A DNA stretch of 64,000 bases. Source: Actinomycetospora succinea. GTDB lineage: Bacteria; Actinomycetota; Actinomycetes; Mycobacteriales; Pseudonocardiaceae. The stretch covers positions 248,001 to 312,000 of the forward strand of contig NZ_SNYO01000003.1 of the NCBI RefSeq assembly GCF_004363095.1. The letters run 5' to 3'. The notes beneath the pieces are model-generated. The model was not told where the DNA came from, ran no database searches, and saw only the letters and a program-made list of their open reading frames with translations. The translations under genes and the position numbers were made by a program. Each line of letters starts with the position of its first letter. The first letter of the stretch is position 1. This document shows positions 15,387 to 24,934 of this stretch, piece by piece.

Positions 15387-15872
15387 TCAGAGCGTGGCGG
15401 CCGGCGGCGCGACGGGGTCGGCGTCGGAGTCGACGTCCGCGCCGGGCAGGTGGACGTCGGTGATGACGATGTTGAGCTCGACGACGGTCACGCCGGCGAT
15501 CTCCTCGACGGCCTTCGGCACGTGGCGGCGCAGCGCGCGGACCAGCTCCCGGGCCCCCACGCCGTACTCGATCTCGACGTCCAGGCCGATGTGGGCCTTC
15601 TGGTCGGCGAGCTCGACGCGCACGCCCGCCGTGTTCTCGGTGTTGCCGGTCAGCGTCTGGCGCACGGCGCCGACGGCCCGGGAGGTGCTCCCACCGAGCG
15701 CCACGACGCCGGGGATCTCGCGCGCGGAGAAGGCGGTCACCTTCTGGATCACCGAGGGCAGCACCTCGGTGGTGCCCTCGACGGTCGTCGGGTCGCCCGC
15801 GGCACCGGGGACGGAGGTGGCGGTCGGGGTCGGGCTGGACGGGGTGCTGCTCGGACGCTGAGCGCTGGTCAT
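15387..15872 (-). CDS. Asp23/Gls24 family protein
   Basis: A 161-residue protein with a Pro/Ser/Thr-rich disordered N-terminus (about 1-38) and an Asp23/Gls24 (DUF322) domain (about 40-145). Typical strands are GVRVELADQKAHIGLDVEIEYG and the amphipathic helix ARELVRALRRHVPKAVEEIAGV. Family members localise at the membrane and are linked to envelope stress. It lies 54 nt downstream of gvpK on the same strand, so it may be the last gene of the gas-vesicle transcript, though it is not a known gas-vesicle component. Confidence 0.85.
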   Translation of the reverse strand: MTSAQRPSSTPSSPTPTATSVPGAAGDPTTVEGTTEVLPSVIQKVTAFSAREIPGVVALGGSTSRAVGAVRQTLTGNTENTAGVRVELADQKAHIGLDVEIEYGVGARELVRALRRHVPKAVEEIAGVTVVELNIVITDVHLPGADVDSDADPVAPPAATL

Positions 15873-15926
15873 GTGCCCCGAGTACCCCGCGGGGACGGTA
15901 CGGAGTCCGCCCGTTCGGCGGCTCCG

Positions 15927-16235
15927 TCAGCGGTTCCGCGGCAGCAGCGGACCGAGCGGTCCGAGATCGATGTTGAGGTCCTCGGGGGACAGGCCGAACT
16001 CCTCGGTGAGCTCGTCCATCGCGTCGGCGAGGTGCATCAGCGACGTGCCGAGGTCCTCCTCTTCCTGCTCGGTGAGGTCGCCCTGCTCCACCCGCCGGAT
16101 CGCCTGCCGTTCCATCAGCTGCCGGAGCAGCTCGACGATCGTCAGCACCAGCTTCATCAGGTCGCGGCGGACCGCGTCCTTGTCGATCTCGATGCGGTTG
16201 GCCCGGGTGCGGCCACCGTCGTCGTCCTCAGCCAC
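15927..16235 (-). CDS. gvpK: Gas vesicle protein GvpK
   Basis: A 102-residue protein matching GvpK, a minor gas-vesicle assembly factor. The recognisable core is RIEIDKDAVRRDLMKLVLTIVELLRQLMERQAIRRVEQGDLTEQ (quoted here only as a region, residues about 14-60), followed by an acidic C-terminal helix. The GTG start overlaps the end of gvpS by 8 nt. It is the last recognisable gvp gene of the cluster, the same terminal position as in the Streptomyces gvp order. Confidence 0.93.
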   Translation of the reverse strand: MAEDDDGGRTRANRIEIDKDAVRRDLMKLVLTIVELLRQLMERQAIRRVEQGDLTEQEEEDLGTSLMHLADAMDELTEEFGLSPEDLNIDLGPLGPLLPRNR

Positions 16236-16488
16236 GCCCCGACTCCAGCTCGGCTCTCTCCGCCCGTGCCGCGAGGGTGCCCGGACGTTCGACCGGCGCG
16301 ATCGACACGATGAGGGCGCGCAGCGAGATGCGCACGAGGTCGACGCCCGCCAGCGAGATCGTCACGTCGCCCGCGAGCACGACGCCGCCGGCCAGGAGGC
16401 GGTCGAGCAGGTCGACGAGCGCGACCTCCTCGTCCCCGAACAGCGACGTCGCCCGGGGTTCGAGCTCTCCCGAGCCCGGCCCCGTCAC
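16228..16488 (-). CDS. gvpS: Gas vesicle protein GvpS (GvpA/J superfamily)
   Basis: An 86-residue protein built around one GvpA-type domain: VALVDLLDRLLAGGVVLAGD, then ISLAGVDLVRISLRALIVSI. These correspond to the helix-strand-strand-helix core of gas-vesicle shell proteins. The short length and position between gvpL and gvpK match GvpS of actinobacteria; GvpM is the alternative name for similar proteins. The GTG start overlaps the gvpL stop (GTGA) and the stop overlaps gvpK by 8 nt. Confidence 0.85.
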   Translation of the reverse strand: MTGPGSGELEPRATSLFGDEEVALVDLLDRLLAGGVVLAGDVTISLAGVDLVRISLRALIVSIAPVERPGTLAARAERAELESGRG

Positions 16489-17252
16489 GACGCGCCCTGC
16501 GCCGCCTGCGCGAAGGAGTACGGCACCCACGGGCCGGTGACCTCGACACGCACCTTCGGGTGGTCGGCGAACGACGCCACGAGCGCGCGCAGCTCGTCGA
16601 CCCGCTCGACCGGCAGCAGGTAGGCGTGGTTGAGCACCATCGGGTCCGACTGCCCGGAGAGCTGCGCGTCCTGCAGACGGTGGCTGCGCGTAGCGGCGGC
16701 GAGCTCGGTGACGGCCGCGTCCACCTCCATGGCGGCCTCGCGGGCGTCGTCGAGCGAGGTCTCGCTCTCGCGCAGCGCCTTGCGCCGCGCGCGCAGGTAC
16801 TCTGCGCCGGAGCGCGGCTTCGCCGCCTCGCCGGCGTCGCCCCCACCGCCGCCCTTCCGCGCGTAGATCTTGAGGCCCCACTCGGCGCGGCCGGCGAGCT
16901 GGTCGAGCACCGCGGAGAACGCGTCGCGGTTCTCGGCCAGCACGGCCCGCACCCGCTCGTCGTCGAAGTAGACGGTGGCGAGCGCGAGCGGGGCGACGAG
17001 GTGGTCGTGGCCCAGGGTGTCGACGACGTGGTGGTGCGCCCGCGCGGTCGCCGTGAGCCACTCGAGGTCCTCGAGGCGCTCCTCGAGCGCCCGCTCCTGG
17101 AACTCGGCGCGGTCGACGTCGCTCACGATCGCCGCCACGCCGTCCGTGCTCAGCAGGCGGACGGCCCCGCCGCCGACGCCGGTGAGGCCCTCGACCTCGC
17201 CGGGGTCGACGCCGTGGGCGAGCGCGTAGACGTAGGTCAGCGTGTCACTCAC
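16485..17252 (-). CDS. gvpL: Gas vesicle protein GvpL (GvpF/L family)
   Basis: A 255-residue GvpF/GvpL-family protein, a chaperone-like factor that contacts GvpA during nucleation. It starts VSDTLTYVYAL, like other GvpL proteins, and has two alpha/beta halves joined by a helical linker containing a Lys/Gly-rich insertion (RKGGGGGDAGEAAK). The GTG start at 17252 overlaps gvpJ by 8 nt, and the stop overlaps gvpS by 4 nt. A longer open frame upstream runs inside gvpJ and is not used. The distant paralog is gvpF at 19265. Confidence 0.92.
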   Translation of the reverse strand: MSDTLTYVYALAHGVDPGEVEGLTGVGGGAVRLLSTDGVAAIVSDVDRAEFQERALEERLEDLEWLTATARAHHHVVDTLGHDHLVAPLALATVYFDDERVRAVLAENRDAFSAVLDQLAGRAEWGLKIYARKGGGGGDAGEAAKPRSGAEYLRARRKALRESETSLDDAREAAMEVDAAVTELAAATRSHRLQDAQLSGQSDPMVLNHAYLLPVERVDELRALVASFADHPKVRVEVTGPWVPYSFAQAAQGAS

Positions 17253-17781
17253 GGTCGGCCCTCCGGCGCCGCTGGCCGGAGCCCTGGCCCTGCCCGCTCG
17301 AGCGCTTGCGGCGCACCGGCTGGGGCTCGGGCTCCTCCTCGGCGGGCTCGTCCTCGTCGACGATCTCGGCGTCCTCGAGGTCGTCGTCGTCGGCGTCCTC
17401 CTCGTCGCCACCCTCCAGGGCCGGGGCGTGGCCGTTGCCGGCCTCCAGCGCCTCGACGCGCTCGCGCAGGCGGCGGTTCTCCTCCTCGAGCTCCTGGTGC
17501 CCCGAGGAGAGGGTGGGATCGCGCTCCCACCAGTCGATGCCCATCTCCTTGGCGCGGTCGACCGACGCGACGACCAGCCGCAGCTTGATCGTCAGCAGCT
17601 CGATGTCGAGCAGGTTGATCTGGACGTCGCCGGCGATGACGATACCCTTGTCGAGGACCCGTTCGAGGATGTCGGCGAGGTTGGTGCCGTCGCCCCCGCC
17701 GCCCTGCCGGGCGGGGGACCCGCCTGCCGCCTGGTTCGGGGCCGACGGCATCTGCCCGGTCCAACGCACCGGGTCGTTCAT
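17245..17781 (-). CDS. gvpJ: Gas vesicle protein GvpJ with charged C-terminal tail
   Basis: A 178-residue GvpJ of the GvpA superfamily. The shell-type domain covers about residues 33-92 (LADILERVLDKGIVIAGDVQ, then LLDIELLTIKLRLVVASVDRA and the GvpJ-typical GIDWWERDP). A coiled-coil segment (HQELEEENRRLRERVEALE) follows. The last ~65 residues are strongly acidic, then basic (RRKR, RRRR). GvpJ is thought to cap or nucleate the vesicle. The tail resembles the low-complexity regions of GvpO and the SRPBCC protein of this cluster. Confidence 0.92.
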   Translation of the reverse strand: MNDPVRWTGQMPSAPNQAAGGSPARQGGGGDGTNLADILERVLDKGIVIAGDVQINLLDIELLTIKLRLVVASVDRAKEMGIDWWERDPTLSSGHQELEEENRRLRERVEALEAGNGHAPALEGGDEEDADDDDLEDAEIVDEDEPAEEEPEPQPVRRKRSSGQGQGSGQRRRRADRE

Positions 17782-17818
17782 GGAGTGCTCCCTCTCGTCT
17801 CCCCCGCGTCCCCCACCG

Positions 17819-19018
17819 TCACTCGTCGTCGCCGCGACCCCGGGTGTAGCGCTTGACGCGGCTGTAGCTGATGAGCTCGCCGTCCGCGTCCATCTCGGCC
17901 TCGTACGTCGCGAGGATGTCCGCAGTCTCGGGGATCTTGCGGCTCTCGACCACTTCGAGGCCCACGACGAAGCCGTCGCCGGTGCGCTTGACCGACGTGA
18001 TCGTCTCGGTCTCCTTGCCGCTCATCTCCTGCACCTGCTCGGCCGCCCACCGCGCGATCTTGCGAGCGGGGATCTTCTTCGGCTCGGGCTCGGGCTCGGG
18101 TTCCGGTTCGGGCTCGGGTTCCGGCTCCTCGGCGACGTCCTCGTCGTCGTCCTGGTCCTCGTCGACGTCGTCCTCGTCCAGGTCCTCGGGCTCCGGTGCG
18201 GGCTCGGGCTCCGGCTCCTCGCGCCGGCGGCGCCGAGGACGCTCCTGGTCCGACGGTTCCGGGGCGTCCTCCGCCGGGCGGCGACGACGGCGCGGGCGCT
18301 CCTCGTCCGCGGTGTCGTCGCCGGCGGGGCGACGGCGTCGCCGCGGCCGTTCCTGGTCCGCCGACTCGCCGCTGCCCGTGCTGTCCGCACCGGCCGCCGA
18401 CCTGCGGCGACGTGGACGTTCCTCACCGTCGCCCGCGTCGTCGGACGGCCGACGCCGACGCCGCGGCTTCTCGTCCGCGCCGTCCGAGCCCTCGTCCGAC
18501 GGCCGACGGCGACGCCGGGGCCGTTCCTGGTCCGCCGACTCGCCGCTGTCCGTGCTGCCCGCACCGGCCGCCGACCTGCGGCGACGCGGACGTTCCTCAC
18601 CGTCGCCCGCGTCCTCCGGCGGCCGACGGCGACGCCGCGGCTTCTCCTCGCCGTCGGTGTCCGCCGACGAACGCCGGCGGCGCGGCTTCTCCTCGCCGTC
18701 GGTGTCCGCCGAAGAACGCCGGCGGCGCGGCTTCTCCTCCGCGGCATCCTCCGAACCCTGGCCGGTCGACCGACGACGCCGCGGCTTCTCCTCGGCCTCG
18801 CCGTCCGCCGGCCGGCGTCGCCGGCGTGGCTTCTCCTCGGCGTCGGGGTCGGCCGGCTTCCGCCGGCGGCGCGGCCGTTCCTCGCCCCCGGACTCGGGCG
18901 CGGCGCCGTTGCCGTTGCCGTTCGACCGGCGACGGCGGGGACGTTCCTGGTCGGTGAGCGGGGGGTCGTCCTCGGTCGTGTCGTCGGCCGCCGTCTCACC
19001 GTCGGCGGAGCGCGTCAC
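17819..19018 (-). CDS. gvpO: GvpO with a long E(R/K)PRRRR repeat region
   Basis: A 399-residue protein. Only the last ~85 residues (about 315-399) form the GvpO domain (IARWAAEQVQEMSGKETETI onwards, ending in RVKRYTRGRG). GvpO is needed for gas-vesicle formation and is usually small. Here residues 25-266 hold 14 copies of E(R/K)PRRRR(R), spaced by acidic Ala/Ser/Asp/Gly linkers. A Glu-Pro and Asp/Glu stretch (about 267-313) comes next. The protein is thus mostly a disordered polyampholyte. The GTG start overlaps the gvpG stop (GTGA). In Streptomyces gvpO is first in the operon; here it lies between gvpG and gvpJ. Confidence 0.9.
   Translation of the reverse strand: MTRSADGETAADDTTEDDPPLTDQERPRRRRSNGNGNGAAPESGGEERPRRRRKPADPDAEEKPRRRRRPADGEAEEKPRRRRSTGQGSEDAAEEKPRRRRSSADTDGEEKPRRRRSSADTDGEEKPRRRRRPPEDAGDGEERPRRRRSAAGAGSTDSGESADQERPRRRRRPSDEGSDGADEKPRRRRRPSDDAGDGEERPRRRRSAAGADSTGSGESADQERPRRRRRPAGDDTADEERPRRRRRPAEDAPEPSDQERPRRRRREEPEPEPAPEPEDLDEDDVDEDQDDDEDVAEEPEPEPEPEPEPEPEPKKIPARKIARWAAEQVQEMSGKETETITSVKRTGDGFVVGLEVVESRKIPETADILATYEAEMDADGELISYSRVKRYTRGRGDDE
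18221..18946 (-). repeat. Coding tandem repeat, 14 copies of E(R/K)PRRRR
   Basis: Imperfect tandem repeats inside gvpO. Each copy encodes ERPRRRR or EKPRRRR, often with a fifth Arg, separated by 7-16 acidic residues. Two blocks (SADQERPRRRRRP preceded by SAAGA...SGESADQ) are near-identical longer units, and SSADTDGEEKPRRRR occurs twice in a row, so the array probably grew by local duplication. Confidence 0.9.
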
Positions 19019-19251
19019 GCGCCACCCCCGCCGCCCACGAGGCGCTGCAGCAGGACCTCCTGCTGCTCGTCACGGTCGCTCTCGGTGATCTCGCCGCGCT
19101 CGAACGCCGCGTCGAGCTCGTCGATCTGGGCGCGGATGACCGCGGGGTCGTTCATCTGGTGGTCGACCTGGTCGGCGATCTTCTCGCCCACCCAGGCCAC
19201 CCCGCGGACGGGCGCCAGGGGCAGGAGCAGCAGCTCGGTGAAGAAACCCAC
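19015..19251 (-). CDS. gvpG: Gas vesicle protein GvpG
   Basis: A 78-residue protein matching GvpG, a small assembly factor. The N-terminus MGFFTELLLLPLAPVRGVAW is the family signature, followed by a helical part (QIDELDAAFERGEITESDRD) and a Gly/Ala tail. The GTG start lies 13 nt after the gvpF stop, and its own stop overlaps gvpO by 4 nt. Position directly after gvpF is the usual order. Confidence 0.93.
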   Translation of the reverse strand: MGFFTELLLLPLAPVRGVAWVGEKIADQVDHQMNDPAVIRAQIDELDAAFERGEITESDRDEQQEVLLQRLVGGGGGA

Positions 19252-19264
19252 GTCGTGCCGGCCC

Positions 19265-20074
19265 TCAGGCCTGGGCTTCTTCGGGGGCGTCGAACTCCGG
19301 CAGGAAGTCGAACGCCGCCGTCGGGCCGACGAGACGCAGCTCGATGCGCCCGGACCACGCGTCGCCGAGCTCGTCGACGGCCCGCTCGAAGTCGCTGCGG
19401 TGGTCGGTGCGGATGAGGAACGCGAGGTGCACGGCCCCGTTCTCGCCGCCCGCCTCCTTGACCTCGGTCGCCACCGCGAACTTGGAGAGCGCGTCGACGG
19501 ACGCCTGGGCGTCGTCGGCGCGCAGCTGGTCCATGGCGTTCGAGATCGCCTCGCCGAGCTTGATGCGGTCGTAGTAGCTGGCGTCCTCGTCGACCCCGGC
19601 GATCTTCTCGCGCAGGGTCTGGATGCGCGGGTCGGCCTCGACGATGCGCGTCAGCACCGCGTTCTGGTCGTAGTCGCCGCGCAGCCGGAACTCGAGGTGG
19701 CCCTCGAGCTGCTCGAGCGCCCGGACGAAGTAGTCCTGGTGCGGCTTGAGCAGCTCCTCGGCGACCGCGTCGTCGTCGGTGACGACGGCCCCGAACCGCA
19801 TCGGGAGCACCGGGGTGTCCTGGGCGATGGCGTTGAGCACCGCCTCGTGGGCCATGAGGTCCTTGCGGGTGCCCAGCGCCCGGTCGGAGGCGACGTCACT
19901 GACGACCGCGGCCAGCCGCCCCTCCGTGACGAGGCCCAGCTGGTTGCCGTCCTCGCCGTAGGGGATCGGGTCGAGCCCGTCGGGGATGCGCACCCCGGCC
20001 GGCACGATGCCGTAGATGTAGGACGCCCGGGCACTGCCCTGCGAGCTCTTCGCGGAGCTCTCGCTGGTGGTCAC
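19265..20074 (-). CDS. gvpF: Gas vesicle protein GvpF
   Basis: A 269-residue GvpF/L-family protein. After a Ser-rich leader it has the characteristic SYIYGIVPAG strand, AAVVSDV, LMAHEAVLNAI and PVLPMRFGAVV segments. A C-terminal domain follows with VHLAFLIRTDHRSDFERAV and RIELRLVGPTAAFDFLP. GvpF binds GvpA and acts early in shell assembly. The start is the GTG at 20074, because GGAGG lies 5 nt upstream; the GTG at 20089 overlaps the gvpA stop and lacks a site. It starts 11 nt after gvpA ends. Confidence 0.93.
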   Translation of the reverse strand: MTTSESSAKSSQGSARASYIYGIVPAGVRIPDGLDPIPYGEDGNQLGLVTEGRLAAVVSDVASDRALGTRKDLMAHEAVLNAIAQDTPVLPMRFGAVVTDDDAVAEELLKPHQDYFVRALEQLEGHLEFRLRGDYDQNAVLTRIVEADPRIQTLREKIAGVDEDASYYDRIKLGEAISNAMDQLRADDAQASVDALSKFAVATEVKEAGGENGAVHLAFLIRTDHRSDFERAVDELGDAWSGRIELRLVGPTAAFDFLPEFDAPEEAQA

Positions 20075-20079
20075 GCCGG

Positions 20080-20084
20080 CCTCC
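20080..20084 (-). promoter_or_regulatory. Shine-Dalgarno site that fixes the gvpF start
   Basis: GGAGG on the minus strand, 5 nt before the GTG at 20074, decides between two in-frame GTG codons. Confidence 0.75.
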
Positions 20085-20085
20085 T

Positions 20086-20466
20086 TCACGCCTGCTCACG
20101 GCGGCTCTGGCGCTCACCGCGCACTTCGTCCCACTTCTCCTTGCCGGCGTCGAGCACGCCCTTGGTCTTGCCCTTCGCCCCGCCCTGCGTGGCGCCCTCG
20201 GTCATCCCGCCGACGACCTCGCCCAGGTCCTTGCCGCCCTTGGCGTGCAGGTCCAGGCGGTTGGTCGCCTCGGCGAACCGCAGGTAGGTGTCGACACTGG
20301 CCACCACGATGCGGGCGTCGATGGTGAGGATCTCGATCCCGACCAGTGACACCTTCACGAACGCGTCGATGACCAGACCCTTGTCCAGGATCAGGTCGAG
20401 GACCTCGGCGAGCCCGCCCTGCGGGTCCTTCTGCACGCCTCCGCCTTGCCGTTGGCTGACGGTCAC
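20086..20466 (-). CDS. gvpA: Gas vesicle shell protein GvpA
   Basis: A 126-residue protein whose residues about 18-68 are the GvpA shell domain ([49 protein letters not shown]). GvpA forms the ribs of the gas-filled protein cylinder. Typical GvpA is ~70 residues; this one carries a ~55-residue Gly/Lys-rich C-terminal extension that ends basic. The GTG start is preceded by a GAGAGGGGG run. A 112-nt gap with a perfect GC-rich hairpin separates it from the upstream SRPBCC gene, which may allow separate control of this abundant protein. Confidence 0.93.
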
Positions 20467-20492
20467 CGTGCCCCCTCTCTTTGACGACGGGG

Positions 20493-20518
20493 CCGGCGCC
20501 GGCTCGTGCCGGCGCCGG
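20493..20518 (-). terminator. GC hairpin upstream of gvpA (attenuator, processing site or terminator)
   Basis: Two identical 10-bp blocks, CCGGCGCCGG, each itself palindromic, flank a 6-nt loop. The structure lies 27 nt before the gvpA GTG and about 60 nt after the stop of the SRPBCC gene. There is no T-run, so simple Rho-independent termination is uncertain. A 5' mRNA stabiliser for gvpA is equally possible. Confidence 0.5.
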
Positions 20519-20578
20519 GGTCGGGTCGTGTGACGGTCGGCCCGGCTGTGCGCTCAACCGGGATGCGATCAGGCCTGG

Positions 20579-21838
20579 TCAGGCCGGGGTGCTCTGACGG
20601 CGCGAGCGACGGCGGGGACGCTCCTCCTCGGCGGGCTCGTCGTCGGCGGGCTCGTCCTCGAGCTCGTCGTCGACCTCCTCGAGGTCCTCGTCGGCGACGT
20701 CCTCGTCGAGCTCGCCCTCGGCGTCCTCGTCGGACAGCTCGTCGTCGTACTCGTCCTCGAGCTCGTCGTCGTCGAGCTCCTCGTCCTCGGCGACCAGGTC
20801 GTCGTCCTCGTCCTCGTCCTGGTCCTCGAGGTCCTCGTCGGCGACGTCGTCGTACTCGTCCTCGTACTCGTCGCCCTCGTCCTCGGCGGCCCGCTGCTCC
20901 TCCTCGAGGGCCTCCTCGTGGGTCTTGACGACCTCACTGTCGCGGATCTCACCGCGCCAGCCCTCGAGCTCCTCGCGGTTGATCAGGGTGTCCATCATGA
21001 CGTGGCGGCAGAAGTGCTTGAACTCCAGCCGCGCGCGGCGCCCGACCGCCCGCCAGATGTTGCCGGTCTTCTCGAAGAAGCCCTTCGGGTAGTACTCCAT
21101 GATCAGGACGATGCGCGTGAGGTTCGGCGCGAGCTCGCTGAACGTCACGATGCCGTCCGCGGAGCCCTTGGCGCCCGACGAGACCCAGAGGATGTGGCTG
21201 TCGGGCACCTGCTCGCGGATCGTGGTCTGCCAGGAGCGCCGCGACCAGAACACCTTGGCGGTCCAGGTGACCTTCTCGTCGGACTCCTGGTTGACCGTCT
21301 CGACCTTCTTCATGAAGCTCGGGAAGTCGGCCATCTGGGTCCACTGGTCGTAGGCGACGCGCAGCGGCACCCCGACGTCCTGGACCTCGTAGATGTTCAT
21401 GAACTTGAACTTGCCGCGACCGGTGTCGGAGCCACCGCCACCGCTACCGCCGCCGCTCTCGTCGCTGTCGTCGTCGCTGTCGTCGCCGCCCATGCCGAGC
21501 GCTCCCATGGCCTTGTCCTTGACGGCCGAGAGCCCGCCCTTGAGCGCGCCGCCCACGCCGCTGCCGCCCTGCAGCATCGACCCGCCGGCGCCCAGCGCGG
21601 ACTGCAGGCCCACGCTCGGGTTCTCGGCGACGTCGGTGAGCTTGCTGGTCAGGCCCTCGACCTGGTCGAGGGCAGCACTGACGGCCCGGTCGCCGGCCGC
21701 CTTGAGCAGCGACGTCGCGGCCTGCTTGAGCCGGTCGGTCGGCAGCATGTCCGTGAGGGATCCCGACGACGAGTCGTCGGAGGCGTCCGCGTCCGGCCGG
21801 TGGCCGTTGGACGTGACGTCGGTGGCGGCCTCAGTCAT
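20579..21838 (-). CDS. SRPBCC-fold protein of the gas-vesicle cluster, acidic tail
   Basis: A 419-residue protein. Residues about 1-125 form a low-complexity, partly helical region with Gly/Ser/Asp runs. Residues about 143-285 form an SRPBCC/polyketide-cyclase-like domain (VPLRVAYDQWTQMADFPSFM, VTWTAKVFWSRRSWQTTI, ILWVSSGAKGSADGIVTF, RIVLIMEYYPKG). Residues about 300-405 are almost wholly Asp/Glu. The end ERPRRRSRRQ (from about residue 406) repeats the GvpO motif. An SRPBCC gene and a gvpY-type gene occur in Streptomyces gvp clusters (named gvpZ/gvpY there); equating this with gvpZ is inference. It overlaps the upstream gene by 8 nt. Confidence 0.8.
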   Translation of the reverse strand: MTEAATDVTSNGHRPDADASDDSSSGSLTDMLPTDRLKQAATSLLKAAGDRAVSAALDQVEGLTSKLTDVAENPSVGLQSALGAGGSMLQGGSGVGGALKGGLSAVKDKAMGALGMGGDDSDDDSDESGGGSGGGGSDTGRGKFKFMNIYEVQDVGVPLRVAYDQWTQMADFPSFMKKVETVNQESDEKVTWTAKVFWSRRSWQTTIREQVPDSHILWVSSGAKGSADGIVTFSELAPNLTRIVLIMEYYPKGFFEKTGNIWRAVGRRARLEFKHFCRHVMMDTLINREELEGWRGEIRDSEVVKTHEEALEEEQRAAEDEGDEYEDEYDDVADEDLEDQDEDEDDDLVAEDEELDDDELEDEYDDELSDEDAEGELDEDVADEDLEEVDDELEDEPADDEPAEEERPRRRSRRQSTPA

Positions 21839-22727
21839 CGCGCTTCGCCGCCGTCCGTCGCGAGCCGGAGCCGGCCGTCGCGCGGCTGCGGGTGCCGCCG
21901 CCCTCGGAGGAGGACGAGGTGGAGCGCGACCGCCCGCCCGAGGTGCTCTTGCGCGTCGAGCCGTTGCTCGCCCGCCCGGAGCCCGAGGAGGACGACCCCG
22001 ACGACGAGGAGCCGCTGTCCTCCGACGACGCGCTGCGTCGACGGCGCTCACCGCCCGAGGAGCTGCCCGACGAGCCGCCCGAGGAGGACGACTTGGTGGA
22101 GCGCCGGCGCGAGGAGCCCGACGAGCCCGAGGAGCTCGCCGCGGGCGCGGTGGCCTCGGCGTCCTCGGTGTCGTCCTCGTCCGCGGTCTCCTCCGCGACG
22201 TCGACGCCCTCGTCGCCCGAGGCCTCGTCGGCGCCCTTCTTGCGACGTCCGCGGCCGGAGAGCCCGCGCGCCGTGTCGCCCACGGCGCCGCCGACGGCCC
22301 CGCCCGCGGTCGACGCCGCGTCACCGACGGCCCCGCCGGCCTGGCCGACGGCGTCGCCGGCCGCACCGGCGGTCTCGCCCACGGCCTGCCCGGCGGCGCC
22401 GGCGGCCTCCGTGGCGGGCTTGCCGAGGTTCTCGACGCGGTTGACGAGGTTGTCGGTCAGCGCCTCCATGCGGGAGCTCGCGACCGCGAGCGCCGCGTCT
22501 TTGCCCGCCTCCATCAGACGGCCACGCACCGCGCTGTCGAGCTTCTGGAGCTCCGGCGACGCCTGGACGAGCTTGGAGACCTGGCCGAGGATCGCCGCCG
22601 GGTCCGTGGAGATCTTCTTACCCGCGAGTGCACCACCCAGCATGATGGCCAACTTCATTTTCTTCGTACGGCCCAACAGATAGCCGCCGATGACCGCGAG
22701 GGCCAATTTCAGGCCGGTACCGGGCAC
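21831..22727 (-). CDS. GvpY-like membrane-associated protein, first gene of gvp operon
   Basis: A 298-residue protein. The N-terminus (LKLALAVIGGYLLGRTKKMK, then LAIMLGGALAG) is hydrophobic with Lys pairs and could anchor in a membrane or on the vesicle. A helical segment (about 40-110) follows, then Gly/Ala repeats (GAAGQAVGETAGAAG). A long Ser/Gly/Arg-rich tail (about 170-298) with RRRS, RKK and acidic patches closes it. The start is the GTG at 22727, fixed by GGAGGT 5 nt upstream. It overlaps the SRPBCC gene by 8 nt. The name follows its place in the cluster rather than a firm homology; no catalytic motif is seen. Confidence 0.7.
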   Translation of the reverse strand: MPGTGLKLALAVIGGYLLGRTKKMKLAIMLGGALAGKKISTDPAAILGQVSKLVQASPELQKLDSAVRGRLMEAGKDAALAVASSRMEALTDNLVNRVENLGKPATEAAGAAGQAVGETAGAAGDAVGQAGGAVGDAASTAGGAVGGAVGDTARGLSGRGRRKKGADEASGDEGVDVAEETADEDDTEDAEATAPAASSSGSSGSSRRRSTKSSSSGGSSGSSSGGERRRRSASSEDSGSSSSGSSSSGSGRASNGSTRKSTSGGRSRSTSSSSEGGGTRSRATAGSGSRRTAAKRDD

Positions 22728-22732
22728 CGTGC

Positions 22733-22738
22733 ACCTCC
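22733..22738 (-). promoter_or_regulatory. Shine-Dalgarno site that fixes the gvpY-like start
   Basis: GGAGGT on the minus strand lies 5 nt before the GTG at 22727; the longer in-frame start at 22772 has no comparable site. Confidence 0.7.
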
Positions 22739-23171
22739 GAACGGATTTGGTCTCACCTCCGCGGTGGACCACAGCCCGCCGCCATCGTGCGGGACATTAC
22801 CGCTCGCCGTTCTCGAATGCGCTAGACCGGGAAGATCAAATTATTCGTGGTCCGTTCGACCCAGTTGTCGATCACGGAAGCACGAAGCGAGGTCACGCAT
22901 TCAGCCGTCACACCGACGGCCAAAACCTCGCACCCGTTCTTCGCGACGAAGTTCGACGTTTTGCCACATTCCTCTGCGCTGAATGCGTCATGTCCGTACA
23001 CCCTGCGGTCGTGTGACGACACAGCGACATCACGACCGGGCACGGACGGCCCGTGCCCTGCTCCCTCGCTCGGCGTTGTTGATCCCGCCGTCCGAGGGCA
23101 CGAGACATGCCCGGGACGGCGCAACCGCCCGACCGACTGATGCCGGACAGCGATCAGGGCCCGGCGGCGCG
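22739..23171. other. Intergenic region upstream of the gas-vesicle operon
   Basis: About 430 nt without a supportable gene, clearly richer in A/T than its surroundings (for example around 22830-22850 and 22955-22975). It should hold the main promoter of the gvp operon. A minus-strand TAATGT at 22794-22799 could be a -10 element, but no matching -35 was found. Short open frames here look random. Confidence 0.6.
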
Positions 23172-23870
23172 TCAGTCGGTGTCGGCGGCGCGCACGACGG
23201 CGTCCACGGCGCGCCGCATCGCCTGCCAGGCCCGCACCCGTGCGCGGGCGATCCGGGTCCCCAGAATGGTGAGCCGGTAGCGCCGTCGATCGGTGTCGAC
23301 GCGTTCGACGAGTCCGTGTCGCGCGAGGTGGTGCAACGTGCGCTGGATCGTGGTCGGCGGCGCCGCCAGGCCGCCCGCACTGTCGTCCCGCAATCTCGTC
23401 GCGAGTTCGCGTCCGTCCGCGGGACCGCGGCGCAGCGCGACGAGGACGAGCAGTTCCACGTGCTCCTGGGACGTGACGCGCACCGAGCCCCAGCGCCGGT
23501 TCGCGACGCCCGCGGTGCGCGTCCCCGACGCCGCCGGGGCGGTCCCGCGCCGGCGGGCGCGCGGGGCGGGCACGAGGTCCGCCGGGGTCTCCTCCGGCGC
23601 GGCCTCCTCGACCGGGGTCCCGGCCTCGGCCGCGGCGTCTTCGGCCGGCCCGGGGGCCGCCCCGCCGGTCTCGTCGGCGGCGTCGTCCGGGCCGTCCTCG
23701 GCCGGCTCGGCTGGCTCGGCCGCTTCCGCGTCGTCGGAGGTCTGCTCGGTGCTGCGCCGCGGGCGCGGCGGCAGGAGGCCGCGCAGGCTCGACGTCGCGG
23801 GACGCCCGAACGCGCTGCTGAGGTCGGAGCCCTCGGAGGGCTCGGCGGCGAAACTGGGCTCGGCGGTCAC
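23172..23870 (-). CDS. Winged-helix (PadR-like) protein with disordered N-terminus
   Basis: A 232-residue protein. Residues about 1-125 are acidic, Ala/Glu/Pro-rich and likely disordered. Residues about 128-232 form a winged helix-turn-helix: EHVELLVLVALRRGPADGRE, then TTIQRTLHHLARHGLVERVD as recognition helix and wing, and a basic C-terminal helix. The GTG start overlaps the ParA stop (GTGA), so it is co-translated with ParA. In such a position it could be the DNA- or cargo-binding partner of the ParA ATPase, or a regulator of the gvp operon 445 nt downstream. Neither role is shown by the sequence alone. Confidence 0.75.
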   Translation of the reverse strand: MTAEPSFAAEPSEGSDLSSAFGRPATSSLRGLLPPRPRRSTEQTSDDAEAAEPAEPAEDGPDDAADETGGAAPGPAEDAAAEAGTPVEEAAPEETPADLVPAPRARRRGTAPAASGTRTAGVANRRWGSVRVTSQEHVELLVLVALRRGPADGRELATRLRDDSAGGLAAPPTTIQRTLHHLARHGLVERVDTDRRRYRLTILGTRIARARVRAWQAMRRAVDAVVRAADTD

Positions 23871-24934
23871 GGGGTGGCCTCCTGGTCGGGGCGGGCGCCC
23901 GGGATCGTGGACCCCGTCGCGGACTCCTCGGTGGCGCGCAGCAGCGTGAGCAGCTCCACGCCGAGGTCGCGGTAGTCACCGGCGACGCTCGCGGCGGTCG
24001 GCGACAGGCGGCGGGCGCTGCCGCCGCCGCCCTCGCGCAGGGCCGCCCACCAGGCCGGCTGCGCCGCGACCTCCTGCTCGAGCTCGTGTGCGAGCCGCCC
24101 GAGCCTGCGGGCGTCCTGCGCGGTGCGCTCGGCGTGGCGGATCGAGGTCGTGAACAGCGGCGAGTGCCCGCCGAAGGCCTCCTCGACGGCCTCGCGGACC
24201 TCGGCGTGCACCACGCGGGACCGCGAGCCGGTCGCGAACAGCACGGCGCCGAGCAGCCCGAGGTCGGGGTTCAGCTCGCGGGCCAGCGCGAAGCGCTCGC
24301 CGACCAGCCGCATCCCGACGAGGCCCCCGCCGTCCGACTTCGTCGGCATGAGCACCCAGCGGGCCGCCGCGAGCGCGAGGTCGGTGAGGATCGTCGTCTC
24401 GGGCGGGCAGTCGATGAACACCAGGTCGTAGTCGCCGGCGACGGGGGCGAGGACCTCGGCGAGGGCCAGGAACGCCTCGCGCCCCTGCTCCTGGACCCGC
24501 GAGACCATCAGCGGCACGAGGTCGACCAGCCGCGCCCCGCCCGCGACCACGTCCAGCCCGGGCCGCACGCCCTCGACCGGCCGCAGCGGCGTGCCCGCGA
24601 CCACCGACACGAGCAGGCCGGCGCCCCGGTCGTCGGCGGGCCCGTCGCGGAAGCCGAGGTCGTCGGCGAGGTTGGCCTGCCGGTTGAGGTCGACGAGCAG
24701 ACAGCGGTACCCGGCGGCGGCGAACTGGCCCGCGAGGTTCGCGACGAGCGACGTCTTCCCGACCCCGCCCTTGTCGTTGACCATCGCGACGGTCCGTGTG
24801 AGCGCCTCGCGGTCGATGCCCGGCGGCGGGTCCTCGGGCGGGAGCGGGGGCACCGGCTCGACCGGTCGGACGGCGCGCGTGCCACGACGTCGGCCGCTGG
24901 AGCTGCGGGCGGCGCGACCCGCCGGTCCGGTCAT
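23867..24934 (-). CDS. ParA/MinD-family ATPase (orphan, no ParB nearby)
   Basis: A 355-residue ATPase with a basic, Pro-rich N-terminal extension (about 1-45). The deviant Walker A motif is KGGVGKT, with signature Lys55 and Lys60. Walker A' reads VDLNRQANLADD, where Asn replaces the common second Asp. Walker B is DLVFIDCPPE. Such ATPases bind DNA non-specifically and position plasmids, chromosomes or protein organelles. The ATG at 24934 is preferred; a GTG at 25039 is also in frame. It is coupled to a winged-helix gene and lies upstream of the gas-vesicle operon. Chromosomal ParA normally has a ParB gene next to it; none is here. Confidence 0.88.
   Translation of the reverse strand: MTGPAGRAARSSSGRRRGTRAVRPVEPVPPLPPEDPPPGIDREALTRTVAMVNDKGGVGKTSLVANLAGQFAAAGYRCLLVDLNRQANLADDLGFRDGPADDRGAGLLVSVVAGTPLRPVEGVRPGLDVVAGGARLVDLVPLMVSRVQEQGREAFLALAEVLAPVAGDYDLVFIDCPPETTILTDLALAAARWVLMPTKSDGGGLVGMRLVGERFALARELNPDLGLLGAVLFATGSRSRVVHAEVREAVEEAFGGHSPLFTTSIRHAERTAQDARRLGRLAHELEQEVAAQPAWWAALREGGGGSARRLSPTAASVAGDYRDLGVELLTLLRATEESATGSTIPGARPDQEATP

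Follow-up and report, generated by a model that had tools for sequence, protein, structure and literature searches.

A ParA ATPase and its PadR-type winged-helix partner upstream of a gas-vesicle gene cluster in Actinomycetospora

Why does a ParA-type ATPase stand upstream of a gas-vesicle gene cluster, and with which partner and which cargo might it work there? The question is raised by a stretch of 64,000 nucleotides from Actinomycetospora succinea (here called the window; G000:C3:248001-312000 of a 6.47 Mb genome). In it, parA (23867-24934, minus strand) is followed by a gene for a winged-helix protein (23172-23870, minus strand), referred to as the adaptor, and after a gap of 444 nt (0.44 kb) by a co-oriented gvp cluster. 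An initial annotation had described an orphan ParA and proposed that the pair distributes gas vesicles, with the winged-helix protein as adaptor.

By sequence, the window ParA is an ordinary ParA. The ParA/Soj-type ATPase of 355 residues starts with ATG at 24934, scores 84.2 bits against the Pfam family AAA_31 and matches a ParA-family protein of the PDB at 6e-23. Its Walker motifs are intact, as first described, with KGGVGKTS as Walker A. Judged from its relatives, it is a member of an actinobacterial family of plasmid-partition-like ATPases, and the named relatives with ParA proteins up to 95% identical belong to Actinomycetospora. Comparison with six relatives gave dN/dS ratios of 0.07-0.27, thus the gene is under constraint (purifying selection). 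On its upstream side, parA is adjoined by nhaA.

The adaptor gene starts with GTG, shares four nucleotides (GTGA) with the end of parA and is preceded by GGAGG, a geometry that agrees with the translational coupling suggested initially. Of 29 loci in the winged-helix class, 27 have the 4-nt overlap (exceptions L085 and L172), which confirms ParA and the winged-helix protein as a conserved pair. Partner and parA also overlap in 8 of 11 plasmid-type loci. Two irregular loci were noted: one fragmented genome carries two ParA-adaptor pairs (G160:C318 and C453), one of them cut by a contig end, and at L084:9083-9702 the adaptor motif is encoded in another frame than the winged helix, through either a frameshift or a sequencing error.

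Within the adaptor, an N-terminal motif resembling ParA-contact peptides (DLSSAFGRPATSSLRGLLPPRPRR, 23754-23825, minus strand) is separated by an Ala/Glu/Asp/Pro-rich arm from a C-terminal winged helix (23172-23480, minus strand). Low complexity covers 42% of the protein, and 34 residues fall within strongly acidic windows; the acidic arm and the winged helix first described are thus confirmed. Profile and model evidence places the C-terminal domain among the PadR-type winged helices. A profile of 18 winged-helix sequences matched PadR/LmrR in the PDB at 3.5e-9, and a fold search with the AlphaFold model of the domain (mean pLDDT 93) returned PadR and LmrR folds at 1.5e-5. The window adaptor itself scores 23.4 bits against the PadR Pfam family, below the gathering cutoff of 27; among five orthologues scanned, three exceeded the cutoff (L081, L088 and L089), L091 stayed under it at 22.6 bits and L094 gave no PadR match. 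The winged-helix domain has dN/dS ratios of 0.16-0.32 (five relatives) and is under purifying selection. The arm evolves nearly freely, with ratios of about 0.44 to 1.0 and 42-47% identity. The motif region is 70-87% identical, its dN/dS of 0.36-1.4 being drawn from 30 codons, too few to judge.

Downstream, Pfam matches for GvpK, S, L, J, O, G, F and A lie on the same strand as the pair. The cluster comprises, all on the minus strand, a gene of low complexity with an acidic stretch and no Pfam match (21831-22727), a polyketide-cyclase-like protein with a long acidic tail (20579-21838), gvpA (20086-20466), gvpF/L (19265-20089), gvpG (19015-19251), gvpO with a long charged N-terminal region (17819-19018), gvpJ-like (17245-17781) and gvpS-like (16228-16488) genes with Gas_vesicle domains, gvpL/F (16485-17252) and gvpK (15927-16235); it ends with an Asp23-family gene (15387-15872). 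No GvpN was found among all 13 genes scanned from 15387 to 24934, so the operon, first called complete, is indeed co-oriented with the pair but complete only in the Streptomyces-like sense. Six of these 13 genes encode a 30-residue stretch with at least 40% D+E, compared with one of 50 other genes called in the window (p 1.6e-4). The adaptor arm thereby resembles the gvp proteins in kind, which is compatible with a shared condensate. A further Gas_vesicle domain is encoded outside the cluster in the same genome (G000:C1:1154183-1154296, L002).

The locus does not have the form of a canonical ParABS system, which we rejected. The only ParB_N match of the genome lies at C3:522526, next to a Soj-like ParA at C3:521474 and about 250 kb from the pair. 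No parS-like site occurs in the window with up to two mismatches allowed, and no repeat array was recognised near the pair. The initial statement that parB and parS-like arrays are missing nearby thus holds for the ParB_N search of the genome and the parS scan of the window. The label "orphan" does not, since the overlapping winged-helix partner is most likely a ParB-like adaptor of ParA.

To place the pair, we compared it with its relatives. Among 72,556 plasmid records, 229 contain a ParA relative at E <= 1e-20, the best being Pseudonocardia plasmids at ~60% identity; the winged-helix protein found no match in the same records at E 1e-3. Scanning genome contigs yielded 71 loci, and the 23 at >= 67% identity come from Actinomycetospora (10) or Pseudonocardia (13) only. 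Neighbourhoods were inspected for these 23 and for ten further homologues (L031-L040), with genes called by a codon-usage script and neighbour names (relaxase, DnaB, gatCAB, glycogen genes) assigned by eye. By this inspection, several of the L031-L040 neighbourhoods hold replication- or transfer-like genes, and in nine of the ten loci the downstream partner combines a ribbon-helix-helix-like C-terminus with a disordered arm (L040 breaks off at parA; L037 and L038 nearly duplicate each other). Relatives with such partners include named plasmids and lie mostly on small contigs. The window pair, in turn, lies on an 814-kb contig that also holds the parB of the genome, and its neighbours are conserved across the genus, which argues that it is not plasmid-borne. 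A tree of 45 ParAs, whose deep joins are unsure and some branches long, unites the winged-helix class in a single clade (91/86) that branches from within the plasmid-type ParAs; the PadR-type partner occurs in this one clade of Actinomycetospora and Pseudonocardia.

For most plasmid-type relatives, the partner gene overlaps parA and its product carries a tandem ribbon-helix-helix-like domain. A fold model of such a partner, built from five sequences, shows two beta-alpha-alpha repeats (mean pLDDT 81). Its best fold matches were F relaxosome chains (E 6.6e-3), which we take to be TraY, and weakly VirC2, with none below 0.001. The window adaptor lacks the ribbon-helix-helix domain of its nearest plasmid relatives and has the PadR winged helix in its place. 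Even though the C-terminal domains differ, the motif DLSSAFG...LRGLLPPRPRR is kept in part of the plasmid-type partners, and its position is that of the ParA-contact peptides of other partners. A profile of 24 winged-helix adaptors matched two of ten ribbon-helix-helix-type partners (E 2.5e-6 and 1.2e-5) and left the other eight unmatched at E <= 10; the best E among 200 shuffles was 6.4. A looser pattern, fitted by eye, occurs in seven of the ten. The strict motif is present in 23 of 26 adaptor sequences and absent from L171 and L172 (G188 and G197). Searched within the first 60 residues of 1462 called proteins, it was found in 20, 19 of them adaptors, some being one gene counted in two loci. 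The pair is best read as a ParA with its adaptor, the product of a domain exchange in a plasmid-type partition system.

Does the neighbourhood of the gvp genes recur? Of 18 Actinomycetospora genomes, 11 carry the pair, in nine cases beside gvp. In TBRC 11914 (G156), parA, adaptor and gvpA overlap one another, with the main gvp cluster elsewhere; in the fragmented, pair-bearing genome G160 no GvpF/L was detected. Among the 15 good Actinomycetospora genomes, five possess gvp genes but no pair. Four of these five (G042, G075, G098 and G118) keep the gvp order; upstream, gatCAB-like genes (named by eye) replace parA-nhaA in three, and in the fourth the contig ends. Mere synteny with nhaA was rejected as an explanation, as in A. 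endophytica parA, adaptor and gvp stay together although other genes lie upstream and nhaA is missing.

In Pseudonocardia, 18 of 62 genomes contain a ParA of the winged-helix class, i.e., 19 at >= 65% identity minus G213 (65%, with a ribbon-helix-helix-type partner) and including G181, which has no adaptor downstream. Gas_vesicle genes are present in 17 of these 18 compared with 22 of the 44 others (Fisher p 0.001, kinship ignored), G203 having the ParA without gas-vesicle genes. In five of the 18, the ParA lies no more than a few kb from gvp, in one it is 3 kb from a solitary gvpA and in 12 it is elsewhere; the gvp-adjacent arrangements are upstream and co-oriented, convergent or downstream. 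For both genera together, with adjacency tallied by hand from contig coordinates and fragmented genomes counted as not adjacent, the ParA class stands beside gvp in 14 of 27 genomes that have both, by a solitary gvpA in two more and elsewhere in 11. None of 11 plasmid-type relatives in gvp-bearing genomes does so (Fisher p 0.0026), each lying on a contig other than that of gvp, with the plasmid type resting on ParA identity for G164, G166, G167, G169 and G170, for three of which a pattern search for the partner found none. In a sample of 150 genomes of the family, with 13 candidates scored per genome, 12 had a ParA at E <= 1e-30 and 55 had GvpF/L; only G000 and G135 have both adjoining, and 53 of the 55 gvp-bearing genomes are without such a ParA beside gvp. 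Thus, the co-occurrence of the pair with gvp clusters holds as a recurrent feature of Actinomycetospora and Pseudonocardia, and does not extend to the 11 genomes in which the ParA class lies elsewhere or to most of the gvp clusters sampled, which are without a parA pair.

In many Pseudonocardia, the ParA class adjoins not gvp but a gene for an acidic protein, X, encoded upstream of parA (L084:7142-7954, L089:6384-7784, L168:12438-13277 and others). Protein X has a conserved N-terminus (DISGYIMLGSKKL), a long acidic region, an LLxPRPRR-like motif and a basic tail, and none of the three scanned gave a Pfam match. In L087, L089, L090 and L093, X-parA-adaptor lies amid glycogen-metabolism-like genes (glgX-, glgP- and glgE-like, by eye). 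Pseudonocardia kunmingensis (L085) has X and parA with no adaptor recognised downstream. The idea that protein X is a vesicle component still missing from the Actinomycetospora set was rejected, with two weak matches in 18 genomes.

The region between adaptor and gvp (22728-23171, minus strand) contains an inverted repeat (ACGCATTCAGC / GCTGAATGCGT) and a promoter-like block. The repeat arms lie at 22895-22905 and 22978-22988, with a spacing of 81-83 nt and an 8-bp core, GCRTTCRG/CYGAAYGC; in two related species the repeat has changed in a paired manner. The two arms occur together in six of nine pair-bearing species compared and in none of four pairless gvp upstream regions, two of which have a single arm. 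The repeat is a candidate binding site of the adaptor, and no more than a candidate. The conserved block (TTTGATCTTCCCGGTCTAG, 22822-22840) lies upstream of the gvp cluster, is degenerate in L082 and was unmatched in the four pairless upstream regions. A structured RNA was rejected: of 14 predicted pairs five had a change on both sides, the covariation term was only 0.12, little was kept beyond the two arms, and a search of Rfam gave no match for the region.

Several known systems offer comparisons. Actinobacterial plasmid ParA systems, e.g., that of the Pseudonocardia plasmid NZ_CP011869, have a ParA about 58-66% identical with an overlapping partner gene and, in part of them, the N-terminal motif; the window pair differs in its 814-kb contig, its chromosomal neighbours, its PadR-type partner and its frequent place beside gvp. 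VirC1/VirC2-like systems pair a ParA with a tandem ribbon-helix-helix protein, and the window adaptor has another domain where the plasmid-type partner weakly resembles VirC2. PadR/LmrR regulators share fold and sequence profile with the C-terminal domain, which in the window is preceded by a ParA-contact-like arm, in a protein that partners a ParA. In excerpts of PMC10241942 and PMC13052382, the carboxysome-positioning McdA/McdB system likewise combines a ParA-type ATPase with a small adaptor beside organelle genes, and the window ParA and those of the 14 genomes are encoded with organelle genes too; here, the adaptor fold differs, the organelle is not a carboxysome and positioning is a proposal. 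In the AspA-ParB-ParA system of the Sulfolobus plasmid pNOB8, a winged-helix DNA-binding protein works with ParA; according to excerpts of PMC5120986, there is no contact between AspA and ParA, and ParB may be the go-between. The window has no such three-component arrangement, with no ParB_N near and motif and winged helix in one protein. The initial annotation also held that ParA homologues are known in some gas-vesicle clusters; no paper on such a link was found by title or abstract start among the matches listed, so this could not be upheld. In term searches of the available text, 'ParA' is absent as a whole word from a gas-vesicle interaction paper (PMC11445434) and 'gas vesicle' from a 2025 review of organelle positioning (PMC13052382). 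In the literature searched, the link looks unreported.

What, then, does the pair do? We consider it about evenly balanced whether it is a ParA/adaptor positioning module that came from plasmids, became domesticated on the chromosome and today works for the gas-vesicle system. In such a module, ParA-ATP dimers would bind the nucleoid, and the DLSSAFG/LRGLLPPRPRR peptide of the adaptor would dock on ParA, triggering ATP hydrolysis, presumably by ATPase stimulation, and release. The PadR-type winged helix would hold the cargo, either DNA of the gvp locus or the sites where gas vesicles assemble. It would thus be the cargo module, standing where plasmid adaptors have their tandem ribbon-helix-helix domain, because in excerpts of a study of five ParA/MinD systems of one bacterium the charged disordered N-termini of the partners are described as the ATPase contact and the remainder as serving the cargo (PMC10241942). 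Some role of the pair in the gas-vesicle system is, on balance, the likelier case, since the gvp linkage is both recurrent and differently arranged. Moving vesicles, positioning gvp DNA and regulating gvp may each be that role, vesicle positioning being only one of the three live readings, and the PadR domain makes DNA the likelier immediate ligand. That ParA spaces gas vesicles or their assembly condensates on the nucleoid and shares them at division, through a domain-swapped adaptor of PadR fold, is a tentative proposal that we think possible but would not expect to hold; of the distribution of vesicles first suggested, pairing, motif and gvp linkage speak in favour, and the DNA-binding PadR fold as likely cargo domain against.

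The same fold would also suit an adaptor that is mainly a PadR-type transcription regulator of gvp, its DNA binding switched by ParA and no cargo moved. The distribution of the repeat arms between pair-bearing and pairless species and the gvp cluster's own conserved upstream block fit this reading, which we nevertheless judge unlikely: three of the nine pair-bearing species are without the full repeat, the ParA class lies far from gvp in many Pseudonocardia, and a ParA together with a contact-like motif exceeds what a repressor needs. Ranked next, and likewise improbable, is a chromosome-resident DNA partition module whose winged helix sits on centromere-like sites, with ParA segregating or positioning the region and the nearness of gvp secondary. 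The named plasmids and small contigs among the ribbon-helix-helix-partnered relatives agree with it, as does the winged-helix centromere protein of pNOB8 (excerpts of PMC5120986); the lack of a recognised repeat array near the pair, the Soj-ParB pair elsewhere in the genome and the recurrence of the gvp linkage in differing arrangements do not. The plasmid relatives of ParA could finally point to a leftover of an integrated plasmid without present role at gvp. This is already disfavoured and very improbable, given that ParA and the winged-helix domain are under purifying selection, that 11 of the 18 species in the genus carry the pair and that the genes on either side are conserved between species, with no plasmid-type gene recognised among those scanned.

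If the positioning module serving the gas-vesicle system is real, gas vesicles would join the cargos of ParA-type positioning, and the pair would illustrate how an adaptor can take on another cargo, with the ParA-contact peptide staying and the cargo domain swapped. The pair is a test case for the role of actinobacterial gas-vesicle genes, and the overlapping parA-adaptor-gvpA of one species makes the link directly testable.
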